From a virus, in IMG/VR virus record IMGVR_UViG_3300006803_000054, positions 1 to 31,354 of that record: a stretch of 31,354 bases of DNA, one strand, 5' to 3'. Both the position numbers and the translations under genes were made by a program. The notes under the pieces were generated by a model that searched no databases, was not told where the DNA came from, and was given only the letters and a program-made list of their open reading frames with translations. The first letter of the stretch is position 1, and each line of letters begins with the position of its first letter. Shown here in pieces: positions 1,321 to 17,521 of this stretch.

Positions 1321-1653
1321 ATGCTTAAAGAAATCGACTACAACGACGGCGAAATACACACTTGGAGTGGTGGTAAGTGTCCTATTCACCAAAAGAGTGT
1401 GGTTGACGTATCCTATGGAGGGCGGTGGATTCTCGCAGCTAAGGCAGCGGACCTTTATTGGTTCAAACCCCTCCTGTTCCGCATTACCAAGCAGCACATC
1501 GAGCCAGTAGCTCCCCCGAAGCCGCTGGAACTGTGGGTGAATGTTTATGCTGACGGACGTGTTATGGCATACAAAACCGCAGATATTGCCGCGTCTTGGC
1601 TTAGCAGGACTGGCCGCACCATTCGCGTGATCGAGGTGCTGGAAGATGTCTAA
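1321..1653 (+). CDS. Hypothetical phage protein with GEIHTWSGGKCP motif, 110 aa
   Basis: The start follows a strong leader (ATAGGAGAGAAATAAG-ATG). The N-terminal part (residues 10-25, DGEIHTWSGGKCPIHQ) is almost identical to that of the tiny protein at 1755-1889. The C-terminal half (about 66-106) begins LELWVNVYADGR and ends RTIRVIEV, a pattern I recall from accessory proteins of rhodobacterial phages. The Cys-Pro-x-His could bind a metal. Base composition is GC-richer than the neighbours, suggesting recent acquisition. The stop overlaps the start of the next membrane peptide. The function is unknown. Confidence 0.65.
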   Translation: MLKEIDYNDGEIHTWSGGKCPIHQKSVVDVSYGGRWILAAKAADLYWFKPLLFRITKQHIEPVAPPKPLELWVNVYADGRVMAYKTADIAASWLSRTGRTIRVIEVLEDV

Positions 1654-5413: not shown

Positions 5414-6766
5414 ATGGCAGTATTTGATGTAGAAGCTGATGGACTACTAGAGGAGGCAACAAAGCTACATGTATTGTCATACCAACCTCTAGGTTCTACT
5501 GAAGTACACTCAGTCCATCACTATGATGACATGAGGGAGTTCCTAACTACAGAGAAGGTCCTAATTGGACACAACATCTATCGCTATGATGTACCACTCC
5601 TAGAGAAGCTCCTCAACATCGAGATTAAAGCCAAGCTCTATGACACTCTTCCTATGTCGTGGTACTTGAATACCAATAGACTCAAGCATGGCCTAGACTC
5701 TTTCGGTGATGACTACGGTATCCCTAAACCCAAGATCACTGACTGGGAAGGGTTAACTAGAGAGGAGTACACACATCGTTGCCAAGAAGATGTTAAGATC
5801 AACATGGCTCTCTGGAATGATCTAATCAAACGTCTCCTCTTCCTCTATAAGGACCGTACAGCCCTAGAGAAGTTCCTTGGGTACCTCATGTTCAAGATGA
5901 AGTGTGCTAGCACTCAGGAGGCCTTAGGATGGCCCGTAGACACTGTTGCAGTCCTTAAGCACATCGAGACACTGACAGCACAACAAAAGGAGAAGAAGAC
6001 AGAGCTAGTCAAGGTTATGCCTAAGCATAAGGTGTACAAGATAGCTAAGCCCCCAAAGGTTCTCTTCAAGAAAGATGGTACAGCCTCAGTGGCTGGTCAG
6101 GGGTGGTTCGATGTATTGGACCAAGAGGGCTTAGATAGAACACACCAAGAAGATGTTAGAGTCTTCAAGGAAGAGGTTGACCCTAACCCTCAGAGTTCAG
6201 ACCAAGTAAAGGATTGGCTCTATGGTCTAGGTTGGGAACCCTGTACCTTCGACTACAAGAAGGACGACAAGACAGGGGATGAACGTAAGGTACCTCAGGT
6301 AAGGAAGGATGGTGAACTAACTGAGTCAGTTAAACTGCTAATTGAGAAAGACCAATCAGTTGGGGTACTTGATGGACTAACAGTTATCCAACATAGACTA
6401 AGTATCTTCGAGGCATTCAGAGACATGGAAGTTGACGGTAAGCTTAAGGCAGAGATTGCTGGCCTAACGAATACCCTACGCTTCAAACACTCTAAACCTC
6501 TAGTCAATCTCCCCGGAGTAGATAAACCTTGGGGCAAGGAGATTAGGGGTTGCTTGATTGCCCCAGAGGGTCATGTACTTTGTGGTGCTGACATGGTGTC
6601 CCTTGAAGATACTACTAAGAGGCACTATGTAAAGCCTCTCGACCCAACTCTTGTTGAAGAGCAGACAAGGGATGACTACGACCCACACCTTAAACTTGCA
6701 GTTGTTGCTGGTATGCTCTCTCAAGAGGACTATGATTTTTATGTCAGTTATAAGAAAGAAGGTTAG
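5414..6766 (+). CDS. Family A DNA polymerase, N-terminal fragment (exonuclease plus palm motif A)
   Basis: This is the first part of a T7-like replicative polymerase. Exo I is FDVEADG (D5, E7), Exo II GHNIYRYD (about 52-59) and Exo III CQEDV (about 123-127). Polymerase motif A is GADMVSLEDTTK with likely catalytic D393. The frame stops at 6766, before motifs B and C, because an HNH endonuclease gene is inserted. The rest of the enzyme is at 7246-7779 in a different frame. AAGGAG lies upstream of ATG 5414. Unless RNA splicing removes the insert, this 450-residue chain must work with the C-terminal chain in trans. Identity as family A polymerase is secure; the split architecture is read directly from the sequence. 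Confidence 0.92.
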   Translation: MAVFDVEADGLLEEATKLHVLSYQPLGSTEVHSVHHYDDMREFLTTEKVLIGHNIYRYDVPLLEKLLNIEIKAKLYDTLPMSWYLNTNRLKHGLDSFGDDYGIPKPKITDWEGLTREEYTHRCQEDVKINMALWNDLIKRLLFLYKDRTALEKFLGYLMFKMKCASTQEALGWPVDTVAVLKHIETLTAQQKEKKTELVKVMPKHKVYKIAKPPKVLFKKDGTASVAGQGWFDVLDQEGLDRTHQEDVRVFKEEVDPNPQSSDQVKDWLYGLGWEPCTFDYKKDDKTGDERKVPQVRKDGELTESVKLLIEKDQSVGVLDGLTVIQHRLSIFEAFRDMEVDGKLKAEIAGLTNTLRFKHSKPLVNLPGVDKPWGKEIRGCLIAPEGHVLCGADMVSLEDTTKRHYVKPLDPTLVEEQTRDDYDPHLKLAVVAGMLSQEDYDFYVSYKKEG

Positions 6767-7304
6767 TGACCTAGTAGGCAGAGAGTTTGACAGACTTGTT
6801 GTCACTGAGTACTTAGGTTTAGGTAAACACAGTAAGCATTACTGGAGGTGTACCTGCAAATGTGGTGGGGAGATTGTGCTGCCTACTTATAGGGTCACAG
6901 GTAAAACAACCAGTACAAAAAGTTGTGGGTGCCTAAGGTCTGAAAAGCTTAGGGTTAATAGAAAAGACTCAACTACCCACGGCTTATATAGGCACAAGCT
7001 CTATGCCATACATTCAGGTATGAAGCAGAGATGTCACAACCCTAATTCTCAAAGGTATAAGTATTACGGGTTTATAGGTATCTCAATCTGCTCTGAGTGG
7101 GAAGAGAATTTCATGTCTTTTTACACTTGGGCTATGGGTAATGGTTATGAAGAAGGCCTCTCTATTGACAGGCTTGATAGTACGAACGGCTACTACCCTG
7201 AGAACTGCCAGTGGGTGACCATATCAGAAAACTCTAGGAGGATGAATGAAGGAAAGCAGAGAAGAAAGGTACAAGAGAATACACGCTGTAAGGAAGAAAG
7301 CTAA
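6741..7304 (+). CDS. HNH homing endonuclease inserted in the DNA polymerase gene
   Basis: The 187-residue protein starts at ATG 6741 (MSVIRKKVSDLVGREFD). An N-terminal zinc-ribbon-like part has CTCKCGG and KSCGCL. The HNH core follows with HSGMKQRCHNP, YKYYGFIGISIC, SIDRLDSTNGYYPENCQW, typical of phage HNH endonucleases. The first 26 bases overlap the end of the polymerase N fragment and the last 59 overlap the start of the C fragment, so almost no non-coding sequence remains for a group I intron. The frame is open back to 6651, but those codons lie in polymerase sequence. It presumably cuts uninterrupted polymerase genes to spread itself. Confidence 0.88.
   Translation: MSVIRKKVSDLVGREFDRLVVTEYLGLGKHSKHYWRCTCKCGGEIVLPTYRVTGKTTSTKSCGCLRSEKLRVNRKDSTTHGLYRHKLYAIHSGMKQRCHNPNSQRYKYYGFIGISICSEWEENFMSFYTWAMGNGYEEGLSIDRLDSTNGYYPENCQWVTISENSRRMNEGKQRRKVQENTRCKEES
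7236..7248 (+). promoter_or_regulatory. Shine-Dalgarno AGGAGG and ATG for the polymerase C fragment
   Basis: AGGAGG at 7236-7241 lies 4 bases before ATG 7246. The six bases are also two consecutive AGG arginine codons of the HNH gene. This gives the downstream polymerase piece its own start signal, supporting independent translation, though the spacer is short. Confidence 0.55.
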
Positions 7305-7779
7305 GGTTGTAACTTACAGCGCTATGTACGGAGTAGGCAAGTCAAAACTCTCTAGGACTACTGGTATGCCAGAGAAGGAGGCTGCCGCACTAATTGAAGC
7401 TTTTTGGGAGATTAATTGGGCAGTAAAAGAGGTAGCAGCAAAGGTTGAGATAAGGAAGATTAAAGGTCAGATGTGGGTTAAGAACCCTGTTAGCAGTTTT
7501 TGGCACTCCCTCAGGTACGAGAGGGATGTTTGGAGCACCCTTAACCAAAGCACAGGTGTCTACTGCTTCGATACTTGGGTTGCCTACTACCTAACTAAAC
7601 GGCCTGATCTACGTGGACAGTTCCATGACGAGACCATCAATGCAGTACCCAAGGGGGAGGAGAAGGTACACGAGAAGGTTCTTCAGTGGGCCATCGGTAA
7701 GGTCAACGATAAACTCAAACTCAACGTGGACCTAGGGGTTGACGTACAATTTGGGGCTAACTACTCCGAAATTCATTAG
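7246..7779 (+). CDS. Family A DNA polymerase, C-terminal fragment (motifs B and C)
   Basis: This is the second part of the polymerase. Motif B (O helix) is RKKAKVVTYSAMYG at residues 16-29, with R16, K20, Y24 and Y28 in the positions of E. coli Pol I R754, K758, F762 and Y766. Tyr at the 762 position is the T7 type, often linked to virulent phages. Motif C is HDE at 127-129. The break lies between motif A and motif B, in the fingers. The fragment runs in a frame different from both the N fragment and the HNH gene. ATG 7246 follows AGGAGG, but the conserved part begins only around ERYKRI (residues 7-12). Confidence 0.9.
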   Translation: MKESREERYKRIHAVRKKAKVVTYSAMYGVGKSKLSRTTGMPEKEAAALIEAFWEINWAVKEVAAKVEIRKIKGQMWVKNPVSSFWHSLRYERDVWSTLNQSTGVYCFDTWVAYYLTKRPDLRGQFHDETINAVPKGEEKVHEKVLQWAIGKVNDKLKLNVDLGVDVQFGANYSEIH

Positions 7780-12860: not shown

Positions 12861-12909
12861 TACCAGTACTATAATAGACTTAATGAAATCAAGGGGACTA
12901 AGTAAACTA

Positions 12910-15783
12910 ATGAGTAATCAACTGCCTACAGACTACCAGACCTTCATTGCAACTTCGAGATATGCCCGATGGTTGCCAGAAGAAAAACGACGAGAGAATT
13001 GGGGAGAAACAGTAACACGCTATGTAGATAACATTGTAAACAAGAAGCTAGCTGAGATTGATTACGTTGGTGGGGTAGCTATAGATATTGAAGAAGCTAT
13101 TCTGGACCTAGCCCTGATGCCCTCTATGCGATCAGTAATGACTGCAGGAGTAGCAGCTAAGCGTGATAATACTTGCATGTATAATTGCTCTTACCTTCCA
13201 GTGGATGATCCCAAGTCCTTTGATGAGGCTATGTTCATCTTGCTCTGTGGTACTGGTGTGGGCTTCTCAGTAGAGCGACAGTATGTATCTAAACTACCTG
13301 ATGTACCAGAGCGTATGTTTGATAGTGGTACAGTCGTTATGGTTAAAGATAGCAAAGAGGGTTGGGCCAAGTCTTATCGTCAAGTGCTCTCTCTCCTATG
13401 GGCTGGGGAGATTCCTAAGTGGGATACCTCTAAGGTTCGTCCAGCTGGCGCTAAACTCAAGACCTTTGGTGGTCGTGCATCTGGCCCAGCGCCACTTATT
13501 GACCTCTTCAACTTCACTATCCAAAAGTTCAAAGGTGCAGTTGGGCGTAAGCTCTCCTCCATTGAGTGCCACGATATTATGTGTAAGATTGGCGAGGTAG
13601 TGGTAGTTGGGGGTGTTCGTCGTTCAGCTATGATCTCTCTCTCTAACCTCTCTGATGACCGTATGCGTCACGCTAAGAGTGGTCAGTGGTGGGAGACACA
13701 AGCTCAACGAGGCTTAGCTAACAACTCAGTATGCTACACTGAGAAGCCTGATGTAGAGACCTTCCTACGTGAGTGGACTGCACTAGTTGAGAGTAAGTCT
13801 GGTGAACGTGGAATCTTTAATAGGGTAGCCTCACGTAAACAAGCAGCTAAGTATGGTCGTCGTAACCCTAACTTTGAATTTGGAACTAACCCCTGTTGTG
13901 TCTCAGGGGACACTCTCATACTCACTAGCACAGGTTATGAGCCTATCTCGGAGGCAGTAGGTCAACCAACTACAATCTGGAACGGAGAGTCTTGGGAACT
14001 TGTGTACCCCTATGAGGCTGGGGAAGCTAACCTATACCGGGTGACACTCTCTGATGGGTCTTACCTTGACTGCACGGACAACCACCGTTGGTGTGTAGGT
14101 AATGAGTTCGTTTACACGGAGGATTTGCAAGTAGGTAATAAGCTGGATAAGTTTGATATGCCTGTAGTAGGTAAAACGAAGCTGGAAATCTTCGACTATA
14201 TGGGGGCATACAGCCAAGGTTTCTACTCTGGTGATGGCACTAAAGGTAACACTAGGTCTTGGTTGTATGAGCCAAAGTATGGTTGTGACAGGAGCCTCGT
14301 AGGTAGAGTGTACGCAGATGGTAAAAACACACACCGCCGTGTTTGGAATCATGGACCTATGCTGGACAAATCATACGTGCCTATGGAGAAAGGAGTCTCG
14401 CATAAACTCGCTTGGCTAGCAGGCATCTTAGACTCTGATGGAACTGTTACACGGGACAAGAATGGTAGTGGCTTTCAGGTTGCTAGTATAGACCATGATT
14501 TTCTCGATAAGCTGCGACTGATGCTAACTACCCTTGGTGTACGAGCTAAAGTAGTCTCCGCAAGCCCAGCTGGTAAACGTATGATGCCAAACGGAAAAGG
14601 GGGCAACGCAGAGTATGACTGCAAAGAGACTAAGCGTATTCTAATTGGTAACTACGATGCTTGGAAGCTCATGAACCTAGGTTTAGGGGCATTTCTCAAT
14701 AGACTGGATCATAACGGTGAGGCCCCACAAAGAGATGCTAGGCAGTTTGTACGTGTTGTTAGTATAGAAGACCTTAACCTCCGAGAGATGACCTTCTGCT
14801 TTACTGAACCTAAAACTTCACGAGGTACTTTTAATGGTATTGTGACTGGTAACTCTGAAATTATCCTTCGACCGTATCAATTTTGTAATCTTTCGGAGGT
14901 AGTGGTAAGGGCTACAGACACCTTAGAAGACCTTGAGCGTAAGGTTAAGCTAGCAACTATTCTAGGTACTATCCAATCTACTTATACGCACTTCCCATAC
15001 CTACGCCCCATCTGGCAGAAGAATACAGAGGAAGAGAGACTTCTTGGAGTATCCCTTACTGGGATCATGGATAACCCACTGATGACGACAAAGAATAGGG
15101 GTTTGGATAAGACCCTTGAGCACCTTCGTCTAGTTGCAGTTGCAACCAATGCAGAGTGGGCTGAAAAGCTAGGTATTGAACAGTCTGTTGCTATTACATG
15201 CGTAAAACCCTCGGGCACAGTGTCACAACTAGTGGACTCAGCTAGTGGTATTCACACCCGACACTCTGAGTATTACATCCGTACAGTACGAGGGGACAGT
15301 AAAGACCCACTAACACAACTTATGAAGGACCAAGGAATCCCTAATGAACCCTGTGTGATGAAACCTGACCACACTGTAGTCTTTAGCTTCCCAGTTAAAG
15401 CCCCTACAGGGTGTGTTACCAGAGACGATATGACAGCCGTACAGCAGCTTGAGACATGGTTGATGTACCAACGTCACTGGTGTGAACATAAGCCCTCAGT
15501 GACAGTATCAGTCAAGGATGAGGAGTGGTTCGAGGTTGGGGCATTCGTCTACAAACACTTTGACGAAATGTCTGGGGTGTCGTTCCTACCTCATGATGGG
15601 GGTAGTTATCAACAAGCACCTTATCAGGAAGTGGGTAAGGAAGGGTATGAGGAACTACTAGCTAAGATGCCAGAGCGTATTGATTGGAGTAAGCTATCCG
15701 ACTATGAGAAAGATGATACTACATCTGGAATGCAAACTATGGCTTGTAGCGGCGACAGTTGTGAGTTTGTGGATTTGACTTGA
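12910..15783 (+). CDS. nrdJ: Adenosylcobalamin-dependent (class II) ribonucleotide reductase with intein
   Basis: It reduces ribonucleotides to deoxyribonucleotides using a B12-generated thiyl radical. Numbering below is from the upstream ATG 12883. Features are of the monomeric RTPR type: NC at 101-102 (redox Cys), CGTGVGFSVE (122-131), the radical-Cys motif NPC (336-338), then after the intein SEI ... QFCNL (658-669) with the second redox Cys, and a C-terminal CSGDSC (955-960) for re-reduction. The intein spans 339-657. Removing it leaves about 638-647 residues, close to RTPR. I prefer ATG 12910 (MSNQLPTDYQ) because AAGGGGA precedes it; 12883 lacks a ribosome site. A TATAAT at 12870-12875 could be a -10 box but lacks a convincing -35. 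Confidence 0.92.
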   Translation: MSNQLPTDYQTFIATSRYARWLPEEKRRENWGETVTRYVDNIVNKKLAEIDYVGGVAIDIEEAILDLALMPSMRSVMTAGVAAKRDNTCMYNCSYLPVDDPKSFDEAMFILLCGTGVGFSVERQYVSKLPDVPERMFDSGTVVMVKDSKEGWAKSYRQVLSLLWAGEIPKWDTSKVRPAGAKLKTFGGRASGPAPLIDLFNFTIQKFKGAVGRKLSSIECHDIMCKIGEVVVVGGVRRSAMISLSNLSDDRMRHAKSGQWWETQAQRGLANNSVCYTEKPDVETFLREWTALVESKSGERGIFNRVASRKQAAKYGRRNPNFEFGTNPCCVSGDTLILTSTGYEPISEAVGQPTTIWNGESWELVYPYEAGEANLYRVTLSDGSYLDCTDNHRWCVGNEFVYTEDLQVGNKLDKFDMPVVGKTKLEIFDYMGAYSQGFYSGDGTKGNTRSWLYEPKYGCDRSLVGRVYADGKNTHRRVWNHGPMLDKSYVPMEKGVSHKLAWLAGILDSDGTVTRDKNGSGFQVASIDHDFLDKLRLMLTTLGVRAKVVSASPAGKRMMPNGKGGNAEYDCKETKRILIGNYDAWKLMNLGLGAFLNRLDHNGEAPQRDARQFVRVVSIEDLNLREMTFCFTEPKTSRGTFNGIVTGNSEIILRPYQFCNLSEVVVRATDTLEDLERKVKLATILGTIQSTYTHFPYLRPIWQKNTEEERLLGVSLTGIMDNPLMTTKNRGLDKTLEHLRLVAVATNAEWAEKLGIEQSVAITCVKPSGTVSQLVDSASGIHTRHSEYYIRTVRGDSKDPLTQLMKDQGIPNEPCVMKPDHTVVFSFPVKAPTGCVTRDDMTAVQQLETWLMYQRHWCEHKPSVTVSVKDEEWFEVGAFVYKHFDEMSGVSFLPHDGGSYQQAPYQEVGKEGYEELLAKMPERIDWSKLSDYEKDDTTSGMQTMACSGDSCEFVDLT
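13897..14853 (+). mobile_element. Intein with LAGLIDADG homing endonuclease inside nrdJ
   Basis: A 319-residue in-frame insertion splits the conserved NPC|SEI active-site motif. Block A is CVSGDTLILTSTGYEPI (first residue Cys), block B has TDNH, the endonuclease motifs are QGFYSGDGT and LAGILDSDGT, and the end is TFNGIVTGN followed by extein Ser. The first Cys, last Asn and +1 Ser needed for splicing are present. The penultimate residue is Gly rather than the usual His, a variation known in some inteins. The intein begins directly after the catalytic Cys, so the enzyme should be inactive until splicing. Confidence 0.92.
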
Positions 15784-15809
15784 CAACAATACCAGTTATA
15801 CCTTACTAT
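15780..15809 (+). promoter_or_regulatory. Sigma70-like promoter P3 (tRNA cluster)
   Basis: TTGACA (15780-15785, consensus) overlaps the nrdJ stop codon; after 18 bases comes TACTAT (15804-15809), then TGAGG. It matches P1 and P2. It would drive the four tRNAs and downstream genes. Confidence 0.6.
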
Positions 15810-15835
15810 TGAGGGTATAGAATAACATAACATTT

Positions 15836-15865
15836 AAGGTGGGGGCATTAAGTTGTCCCCACTTT
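15836..15865 (+). other. Strong stem-loop in the tRNA leader
   Basis: aaggtgggg (15836-15844) pairs with ccccacttt (15857-15865), nine pairs with one G-T, 12-base loop. Only a short interrupted T stretch follows. Because it lies downstream of P3 it may be an RNA-processing or attenuator hairpin; it could also end the nrdJ message. A smaller hairpin (tatacc/ggtata) lies at 15797-15819. Confidence 0.5.
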
Positions 15866-15877
15866 ATAAAGACTAAA

Positions 15878-15955
15878 GGCCCCTTAGCTCAGCTGGATTA
15901 GAGCAAAAGACTTCTAATCTTTAGGCCGTAGGTTCGAGTCCTAGAGGGGTCACCA
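15878..15955 (+). tRNA. tRNA-Arg (TCT), CCA encoded
   Basis: Acceptor GGCCCCT/AGGGGTC with one G-T pair, D stem GCTC/GAGC, anticodon stem AAAGA/TCTTT with loop CTTCTAA (anticodon TCT, reads AGA), T arm with TTCGAGT loop, then A-CCA. The T stem has one mismatch at its base. AGA is rare in GC-rich alphaproteobacteria, so it probably supports phage codon use. Confidence 0.92.
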
Positions 15956-15968
15956 AAACTAATCTCTA

Positions 15969-16055
15969 GCGGGTGTGGTGAAACTGGTTATACACGTCAG
16001 ACTTAAAATCTGATTCCTTAATGGAGTGTGGGTTCAAGTCCCACCACCCGTACCA
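15969..16055 (+). tRNA. tRNA-Leu (TAA), CCA encoded
   Basis: Acceptor GCGGGTG/CACCCGT, anticodon stem TCAGA/TCTGA with loop CTTAAAA (anticodon TAA, reads TTA), a long variable arm typical of leucine tRNAs, T stem GTGGG/CCCAC, A-CCA end. It reads the AT-rich leucine codon. Confidence 0.93.
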
Positions 16056-16062
16056 AACCAAA

Positions 16063-16136
16063 GTCGGTGTAGCGTAATGGTAGCGCGTCAGTCTCCAAAA
16101 CTGAAAGTCGGGGTTCGATTCCCCGCACCCTCGCCA
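16063..16136 (+). tRNA. tRNA-Trp (CCA), CCA tail encoded, imperfect acceptor
   Basis: Anticodon stem TCAGT/ACTGA with loop CTCCAAA (anticodon CCA), T arm CGGGG/CCCCG with TTCGATT loop, discriminator G and CCA tail. Acceptor GTCGGTG against CACCCTC has two mismatches at positions 2 and 3. The G discriminator fits bacterial tRNA-Trp identity. It may be a decaying or edited tRNA. Confidence 0.85.
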
Positions 16137-16155
16137 CTAACACTAAAACTAATAT

Positions 16156-16231
16156 GCTTGCGTAGCTCAGTTGGTAGAGCGCTTGACTTGTAATCGAGAG
16201 GCCGTTGGTTCGACCCCGACCGTAAGCACCA
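16156..16231 (+). tRNA. tRNA-Thr (TGT), CCA encoded
   Basis: Acceptor GCTTGCG/CGTAAGC with one G-T, D stem GCTC/GAGC, anticodon stem CTTGA/TCGAG with loop CTTGTAA (anticodon TGT, reads ACA), T stem GTTGG/CCGAC, A-CCA. Confidence 0.93.
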
Positions 16232-16296
16232 AACTAAAGTTAATCTCCGCATTTCTTGCGGTGCATCTACGAGTTACGGAGTTGAATCGTAAACTA

Positions 16297-16397
16297 TACT
16301 ACCTTTGTTCTTGGACTGCGTATCTTAACGGTATCTTTGGGAGTCCCTTAGTGCCTCTCCTCGCTAAGCCCAAGACGGTCCAAGTACTAAGGTAGTA
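16297..16397 (+). ncRNA. Candidate structured RNA after the tRNA cluster
   Basis: This gene-free 101-base segment folds by eye into one long rod: tactacctt (16297-16305) with aaggtagta (16389-16397); cttggac (16310-16316) with gtccaag (16378-16384), the two helices separated by a symmetric 4x4 loop; tttggg (16336-16341) with cccaag (16369-16374); cttag (16347-16351) with ctaag (16364-16368). That makes about 27 pairs. Two smaller hairpins precede it: ccgca/tgcgg at 16247-16261 and ttacg/cgtaa at 16274-16292. It is not a recognisable tRNA. It probably shares the P3 transcript with the tRNAs. Confidence 0.5.
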
Positions 16398-16423
16398 AGA
16401 TTATATATAGAGGAGAGAGAGTA

Positions 16424-16891
16424 ATGAAAGAGTACGGTACACTAAAGGAGTTTGGGTTTAATGTAGGAGATACTGCTTACCCTAAAGAACCATTCTTAAA
16501 GCCTTTTTATGTAACTGAGCTAGACCTAGAGAATATCTATCTGCAGGTACTTAACCCGGCCAATTATGCTCATATACTTATAACAGAGTCAAAACACACA
16601 ACAGTACAAGCAGATGGGGGTCCAGCGAGCTATTATGATTATCCACCACACTGGAATACTCACAATGACTACGTGGAAGATAAGTCTAAGAATCAGTGGC
16701 TAGAGCACTCATGGCACTTAGCTAATGTGAGTAAGGTTCTCACTAGGTGGGGTGACAAAGAAGGTACTTCCAAGACCTATGATGCCAAGAAGGGTATCTA
16801 CTCTTTTTGTCGTGTACTAATGGCTCTAATTGGTAAAGAGGCCATGAGGGAGTACCTGCAGAAACTACTTGATGACCCACAATTTAAATAG
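16424..16891 (+). CDS. Two-part accessory protein: VGD module plus DUF3310-like region, 155 aa
   Basis: AGAGGAGAGAGAG precedes the ATG. Residues 1-60 (TLKEFGFNVGDTAYP ...) resemble the N-terminal module of the 3738 protein. The second part, from about 70, has YPPHW, then LANVSKVLTRWGDKEG and DAKKGIYSF, a pattern similar to DUF3310 proteins of phages (GNVxKYxxRxxxK ... DLxKAxWYL). The role of DUF3310 is unknown. Located just behind the tRNA and RNA cluster. The family call is tentative. Confidence 0.65.
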   Translation: MKEYGTLKEFGFNVGDTAYPKEPFLKPFYVTELDLENIYLQVLNPANYAHILITESKHTTVQADGGPASYYDYPPHWNTHNDYVEDKSKNQWLEHSWHLANVSKVLTRWGDKEGTSKTYDAKKGIYSFCRVLMALIGKEAMREYLQKLLDDPQFK

Positions 16892-17487: not shown

Positions 17488-17521
17488 GGGGGTCCCATTA
17501 GGGGCTCCCCTTTTCTTTTTT
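17488..17521 (+). terminator. Rho-independent terminator ending the rightward arm
   Basis: gggggtccc (17488-17496), loop atta, ggggctccc (17501-17509), nine pairs with two G-T, followed directly by a T-rich run (ttttctttttt). It lies between two converging gene arms. There is no matching T-run on the other strand, so it should stop rightward transcripts only. Confidence 0.88.

Follow-up and report, generated by a model that had tools for sequence, protein, structure and literature searches.

Behind a cluster of four tRNA genes in a viral genome lies a 101-nt inverted repeat, occupying exactly 16297–16397 and here called the rod. Judging by its computed fold, it is a real and strong RNA structure, hitherto unannotated, of an ordinary general kind and found in one virus population. 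Most likely, given its predicted structure and position, the rod parts the tRNAs from the message that follows, and it may help to control the translation of that message. The window is the whole stretch of DNA analysed, that is, the virus record IMGVR_UViG_3300006803_000054 of 31,354 bases; coordinates given without a locus name refer to it, and the features are collected in Table 1.

Table 1. Features of the rod, of its surroundings in the window, and of the rods in the second phage group.
Feature	Position	Strand	Evidence or remark
Sigma-70-type promoter, TTGACA + 18 nt + TACTAT	15780–15809	+	10/12 consensus positions; putative function
Hairpin of 13 bp, interval from promoter to first tRNA	15835–15862	+	−21.3 kcal/mol, z −4.8, 0/500 shuffles
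tRNA-Arg (TCT)	15878–15955	+	ARAGORN, Rfam RF00005
tRNA-Leu (TAA)	15969–16055	+	ARAGORN, Rfam RF00005
tRNA-Trp (CCA)	16063–16136	+	ARAGORN, Rfam RF00005
tRNA-Thr (TGT)	16156–16231	+	ARAGORN, Rfam RF00005
Spacer with two weak hairpins	16240–16291	+	z −0.71, 106/500 shuffles as stable
Main stem, 5′ strand	16297–16318	+	arm complementarity, pair list of the fold
Hairpin B, 5 bp, 5-nt loop, weak	16320–16334	+	pair probability about 0.49, formed about half the time
Hairpin C, 6 + 7 bp with 5-nt bulge	16336–16374	+	pair probabilities 0.80 and 0.99
Apical loop of hairpin C, 8 nt, CCUCUCCU	16354–16361	+	complementary to the Shine–Dalgarno region of the next gene
Main stem, 3′ strand	16376–16397	+	arm complementarity, pair list of the fold
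Shine–Dalgarno region GAGGAGAGAGAG of the next gene	16410–16421	+	sequence
Downstream gene, 155 aa, unknown function	16424–16891	+	no PHROG family; no Pfam match above cut-off
tRNA-like gene, second group: T-arm GGTTCGAGTCC, 7-bp acceptor stem, variable middle	L122:643–727 and homologues		missed by ARAGORN
Six divergent rods, second group	L122:736–830; L101:691–789; L106:511–595; L108:806–904; L129:1638–1728; L131 around 1542–1626		85–99 nt

The virus and its tRNA cassette

The ribonucleotide reductase (RNR) of the virus is 80% identical to that of Lentibacter phage ICBM2 and about 71–79% identical to those of Roseobacter CRP phages. The two arms of the genome run in opposite directions with a terminator-like site (17488–17512) between them, in agreement with the opposed arms of the published cobavirus layout (PMC6775973). 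The virus is a cobavirus-like roseophage, that is, a marine bacterial virus; the cobaviruses are distant relatives of T7 (PMC6775973). The genomes in the paper defining the cobaviruses are reported to be without tRNAs (PMC6775973), in contrast to the window, which has four at 15878–16231.

The tRNA cluster, the rod and the Shine–Dalgarno (SD) region of the downstream gene all lie on the same (+) strand. The promoter upstream of the cluster is the sole match to its pattern in the window, with 0.02 expected by chance, and no further promoter is seen on this strand before the downstream gene. It likely drives the tRNA cluster plus what comes after. The 13-bp hairpin ahead of the first tRNA is stable, and hence stable stems flank the tRNA block on both sides. 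The last two thirds of the downstream gene correspond to a phage family often found beside RNR, PhoH or ThyX. From the end of tRNA-Thr to the next start codon (16232–16423) there is no ATG-started gene, in line with an earlier note on this DNA, made from the letters alone, which had called the stretch gene-free.

The RNR gene (12883–15783) is interrupted in frame by an insert bearing a LAGLIDADG domain (PF14528), probably an intein; the RNR of one relative (L005) is without the insert, 641 aa versus 966. The DNA polymerase gene (5414–7779) is split into a 450-aa part, a 217-aa ORF (6651–7304) that is homing endonuclease-like by eye and has no Pfam match, and a C-terminal part from position 7246. 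A large noncoding region at 568–1095 is rich in repeats with the units TACTTAATGTA and TTACTTAAGG. It includes a 22-nt near-perfect palindrome (743–786), and the segment 568–800 folds with −91.9 kcal/mol (z −5.7). The region may hold an origin of replication or else a further structured RNA.

Fold and stability of the rod

The 20-nt arms 16297–16316 and 16378–16397 are 90% complementary and lie 61 nt apart. No other two 20-nt arms in the entire 31 kb of the window lie within 120 nt of each other with two mismatches or fewer, and ten shuffled windows yielded one such pair altogether. The main stem has 22 positions, arranged as 9 bp, a 1 × 1 mismatch, 2 bp, a second 1 × 1 mismatch and 9 bp, with the lower helix at 16297–16305/16389–16397 and the upper one at 16310–16318/16376–16384. 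Its 20 pairs close a three-way junction with hairpins B and C, and the fold has 38 pairs in total. The earlier note had proposed a rod of four stacked helices, two of them separated by a symmetric 4 × 4 internal loop. The 101-nt rod and the lower helix named there are present in the computed fold, and there is indeed an element between two helices; however, the helices form a long stem closing a junction rather than a stack of four, and folding resolves the putative loop into the two mismatches around 2 bp.

The same note had suggested energy folding against shuffled sequence, and the structure passes this check. Folded by itself, the rod reaches a minimum free energy of −39.1 kcal/mol (z −4.7 to −5.0), and none of 1000 shuffles is as stable; the segment 16240–16400 folds with −51.3 kcal/mol (z −3.4; none of 200 shuffles). 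The stability of the rod is not due to composition. The pair probability of the main stem is 0.89–0.99 in every transcript context tried, up to 1077 nt (15815–16891), and the junction arms by themselves are not significant (z −1.1). The opposite strand likewise folds well, which is inevitable for an inverted repeat. The two hairpins reported ahead of the rod did not hold up, being no more stable than shuffled sequence (z −0.58 and −0.71; 132 and 106 of 500 shuffles as stable).

Rfam 15 applied to the window matches only the four tRNAs; in the interval 16200–16450 nothing meaningful turns up even at E ≤ 10. The stably folding RNA behind the tRNA cluster is new to Rfam, which supports the possible new structured RNA of the note. 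The further claim that the rod is neither a tRNA nor a terminator also stands. ARAGORN reports no tRNA there, and the Rfam search of the same interval gives no tRNA-type match. An intrinsic terminator is rejected because there is no U-run, the stem being followed by AGATTATATA, and no terminator site on the + strand near 16397. On the minus strand, a sequence resembling a promoter (16592–16563) was considered as the start of an antisense RNA, but it falls within the number of sites expected by chance.

Copies of the rod and origin of the cassette

Outside the window, the rod was found only in three contigs (L002–L004), which are identical across the rod and show 99.9% identity overall, leaving no variation in which the compensating changes sought by the note could appear. 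No second copy was found in the window, in 50,697 phages and 72,556 plasmids searched by blastn, or in 84,980 genomes scanned with the rod pattern. Queries with the downstream protein, RNR, and DNA patterns of the stem, the junction, tRNA-Trp and tRNA-Thr retrieved no diverged copy from viral contigs. The covariance model of the window rod (R1) detected no diverged copy in 84 loci, 40 whole records and 30 further loci; in the whole-record scan, the other 39 of the 40 records were without a match. An exact 18-mer match in two loci (L085 and L089) was set aside as chance, since the surrounding sequence is unrelated.

Homologues of the downstream gene are found in 32 further viral loci, identical contigs not counted, at 38–66% identity. 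A comparable leader is absent before those examined, most of which overlap the preceding gene, and R1 has no match in these loci. In L097, RNR directly precedes the homologue with a 4-nt overlap, while in L095 and L096 it ends 79 nt before it. In the window, these two genes are separated by the cassette formed by the promoter, the four tRNAs and the rod. Since RNR and the downstream gene are adjacent in these other loci, the gene order is most simply explained by a gain of the promoter–tRNA–rod block, about 640 bp, between two neighbouring genes.

Rods in a second group of phages

The downstream gene also led to a separate group of phages (L101, L104, L106, L107, L108, L122 and their records). 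Six divergent rods are present here, close behind a tRNA-like gene (about 15 nt or less from its 3′ end) and inside a noncoding zone of about 500 nt. The tRNA-like gene, GACTGCG...CGCAGTC, is seen in L122, L129, L130 and L131. All six copies keep a stem of about 20 pairs with 1 × 1 mismatches, and the small hairpins on top differ; in the stem, one pair is altered on both sides and two on one side. The L122 rod alone has z −8.4. In some copies, the 3′ strand of the stem, AGAAACGCGG, is also complementary to CCGCGTTTCT further downstream, and thus an alternative fold is possible. There is no Rfam match in the rod zones of L122 and L107, and no blastn match to the L122 noncoding zone in 50,697 phages.

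These rods resemble the window rod in build, with a stem of about 20 pairs, 1 × 1 mismatches, a junction on top and a tRNA-type neighbour. However, the stem sequences are unrelated, and the rods of the second group are not upstream of the same gene. The covariance model of the second group (R2) scores 2.6 bits on the window rod (E 0.72 in a 199-base search with filters off), and R1 has no match to the rods of the second group. As far as the sequences tell, the two kinds of rods have the same architecture, and the covariance models do not support kinship. No rod is found behind other phage tRNAs at six further sites in the loci examined; phage tRNAs are not generally followed by rods. One may imagine a dedicated device, placed by different phage groups directly behind their tRNA genes in the form of a junction-topped rod RNA (85–101 nt), by which the tRNA precursor is released or protected. 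The window rod and the R2 rods would then belong to one functional class without being related in sequence, both being absent from Rfam, but we regard this whole reading as improbable.

A loop complementary to the Shine–Dalgarno region

The loop of hairpin C is a perfect complement, over 7 nt or over 8 nt with the closing base, of the SD sequence GAGGAGAG at 16410–16417, which sits 12–13 nt past the main stem. An inverted-repeat search independently pairs 16348–16362 with 16410–16424, with 80% agreement over 15 nt. The predicted energy of the loop–SD duplex is −11.7 to −15.6 kcal/mol, pseudoknot costs excluded, versus −9.2 for pairing of the SD with the 16S anti-SD. Such 7-nt complementarity is reached by 0.45% of random 8-mers from the window; if the pyrimidine-rich composition of the loop is kept, 14% of shuffles equal it, and 6.7% of shuffled whole leaders contain an 8-nt complement of the SD somewhere. 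Given the latter two values, the loop–SD step is only suggestive: the loop may pair with the SD and so perhaps regulate how the next gene is translated.

Possible function and alternative explanations

The earlier note had offered three roles, a regulatory small RNA, a tRNA-processing element and a decoy, and the second of them, understood as a processing or leader element, fits best. Specifically, with confidence somewhat short of even, we propose that the rod is a cis-acting intercistronic leader on a tRNA–mRNA transcript, with a stem for RNase III-type processing or 5′ protection and, possibly, loop–SD control. We favour this reading because the stem is stable, robust in long transcripts and placed between the tRNA cluster and the SD, because rods of like build follow a tRNA-like gene in an unrelated phage group, and because RNase III cuts comparable transcripts, namely the R1.1 stem in T7 RNA (PMC4858673) and Correia-element transcripts (PMC10969869). 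The near-continuous duplex of about 20–22 pairs expected of an RNase III signal forms in all the contexts tried, as 9 + 1 × 1 + 2 + 1 × 1 + 9.

In the proposed mechanism, transcription would begin after 15809 and pass through the tRNAs into the downstream gene. Excision of the tRNAs would leave the 22-position stem, whose two helical turns are the size bound by RNase III. The host RNase III could then cut the stem, parting the tRNA precursor from the mRNA; alternatively, the stem could remain on the mRNA as a protective 5′ structure. More weakly, the loop of hairpin C might pair with the SD and lower translation, a block that would be relieved by ribosomes, cleavage or a factor freeing the SD. 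Phage tRNA clusters are common, and to our knowledge few studies address how their transcripts are parted from adjacent mRNAs; with its well-delimited stem ahead of the next start site, the present cluster is a case that can be tested directly. If the loop–SD pairing is true, a single RNA would link the processing of the tRNAs to the translation of the gene behind them.

The chief rival is a passive DNA relic, that is, an imperfect inverted repeat, MITE-like or a recombination scar, which came with the tRNA cassette and folds without a selected function. The arms of 20–22 nt flanked by TA and the length of 101 bp resemble those of Correia and other small inverted-repeat elements (PMC10969869), the conservation is confined to one virus population, and the junction arms lack significance of their own. 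Nevertheless, we consider a relic somewhat unlikely, as the searches of the window, phages, plasmids and genomes yielded no second copy, and TA adjoining a palindrome does not evidence target duplication. With no second copy found in these searches, the rod is not classified as a MITE, which would have dispersed copies with common terminal inverted repeats. A stable free-standing small RNA, cut from the tRNA transcript and acting in trans, is distinctly unlikely. T4 tRNA clusters contain stable RNAs, the three-way junction is compact and stable, and processing of the tRNA transcript in which it is located would release such an RNA; on the other hand, it has neither a promoter nor a terminator of its own, lies 26 nt from the next start codon, and has no Rfam match and no conserved loops for comparison.

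The remaining two explanations are weaker. That the rod is a tRNA-like mimic or a decayed tRNA gene serving as a decoy is highly improbable: the stem CTTGGACT/GGTCCAAG followed by TTAACGGTA bears, by eye, a faint resemblance to an acceptor stem and D-loop, but the T-arm motif is absent, and the negative ARAGORN and Rfam results given above leave the decoy without positive evidence. A small protein encoded across the rod region is scarcely credible. The frame 16171–16395 is open for 74 codons, beginning inside tRNA-Thr, or for 44 codons from GTG at 16262; however, reading frames through tRNA genes often lack stop codons by chance, the entire leader has no ATG and no well-placed SD, and no match occurs among 50,697 phage records.

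Comparison with known systems

Three known systems are comparable to the rod. MITEs of the Correia/nemis type are about 100 bp or more in length, have terminal inverted repeats and produce transcripts cut by RNase III (PMC10969869), whereas the window rod is a single copy for which no dispersed relatives were found. Like structured 5′ leaders that hide the SD by loop pairing, it has a loop whose sequence complements the SD of the gene directly behind it; unlike them, it is a single sequence without a ligand or a conserved core, and its complementarity is partly compositional. It differs from the RNase III signals of T7-type phages in having a three-way junction on top, in following tRNA genes, and in that cleavage here is only predicted. 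At that, the R1.1 signal has the shape of a stem of about two helical turns with a small internal loop, and it and the other signals of this type are, like the window rod, situated between cistrons, in their case those of the early transcript.
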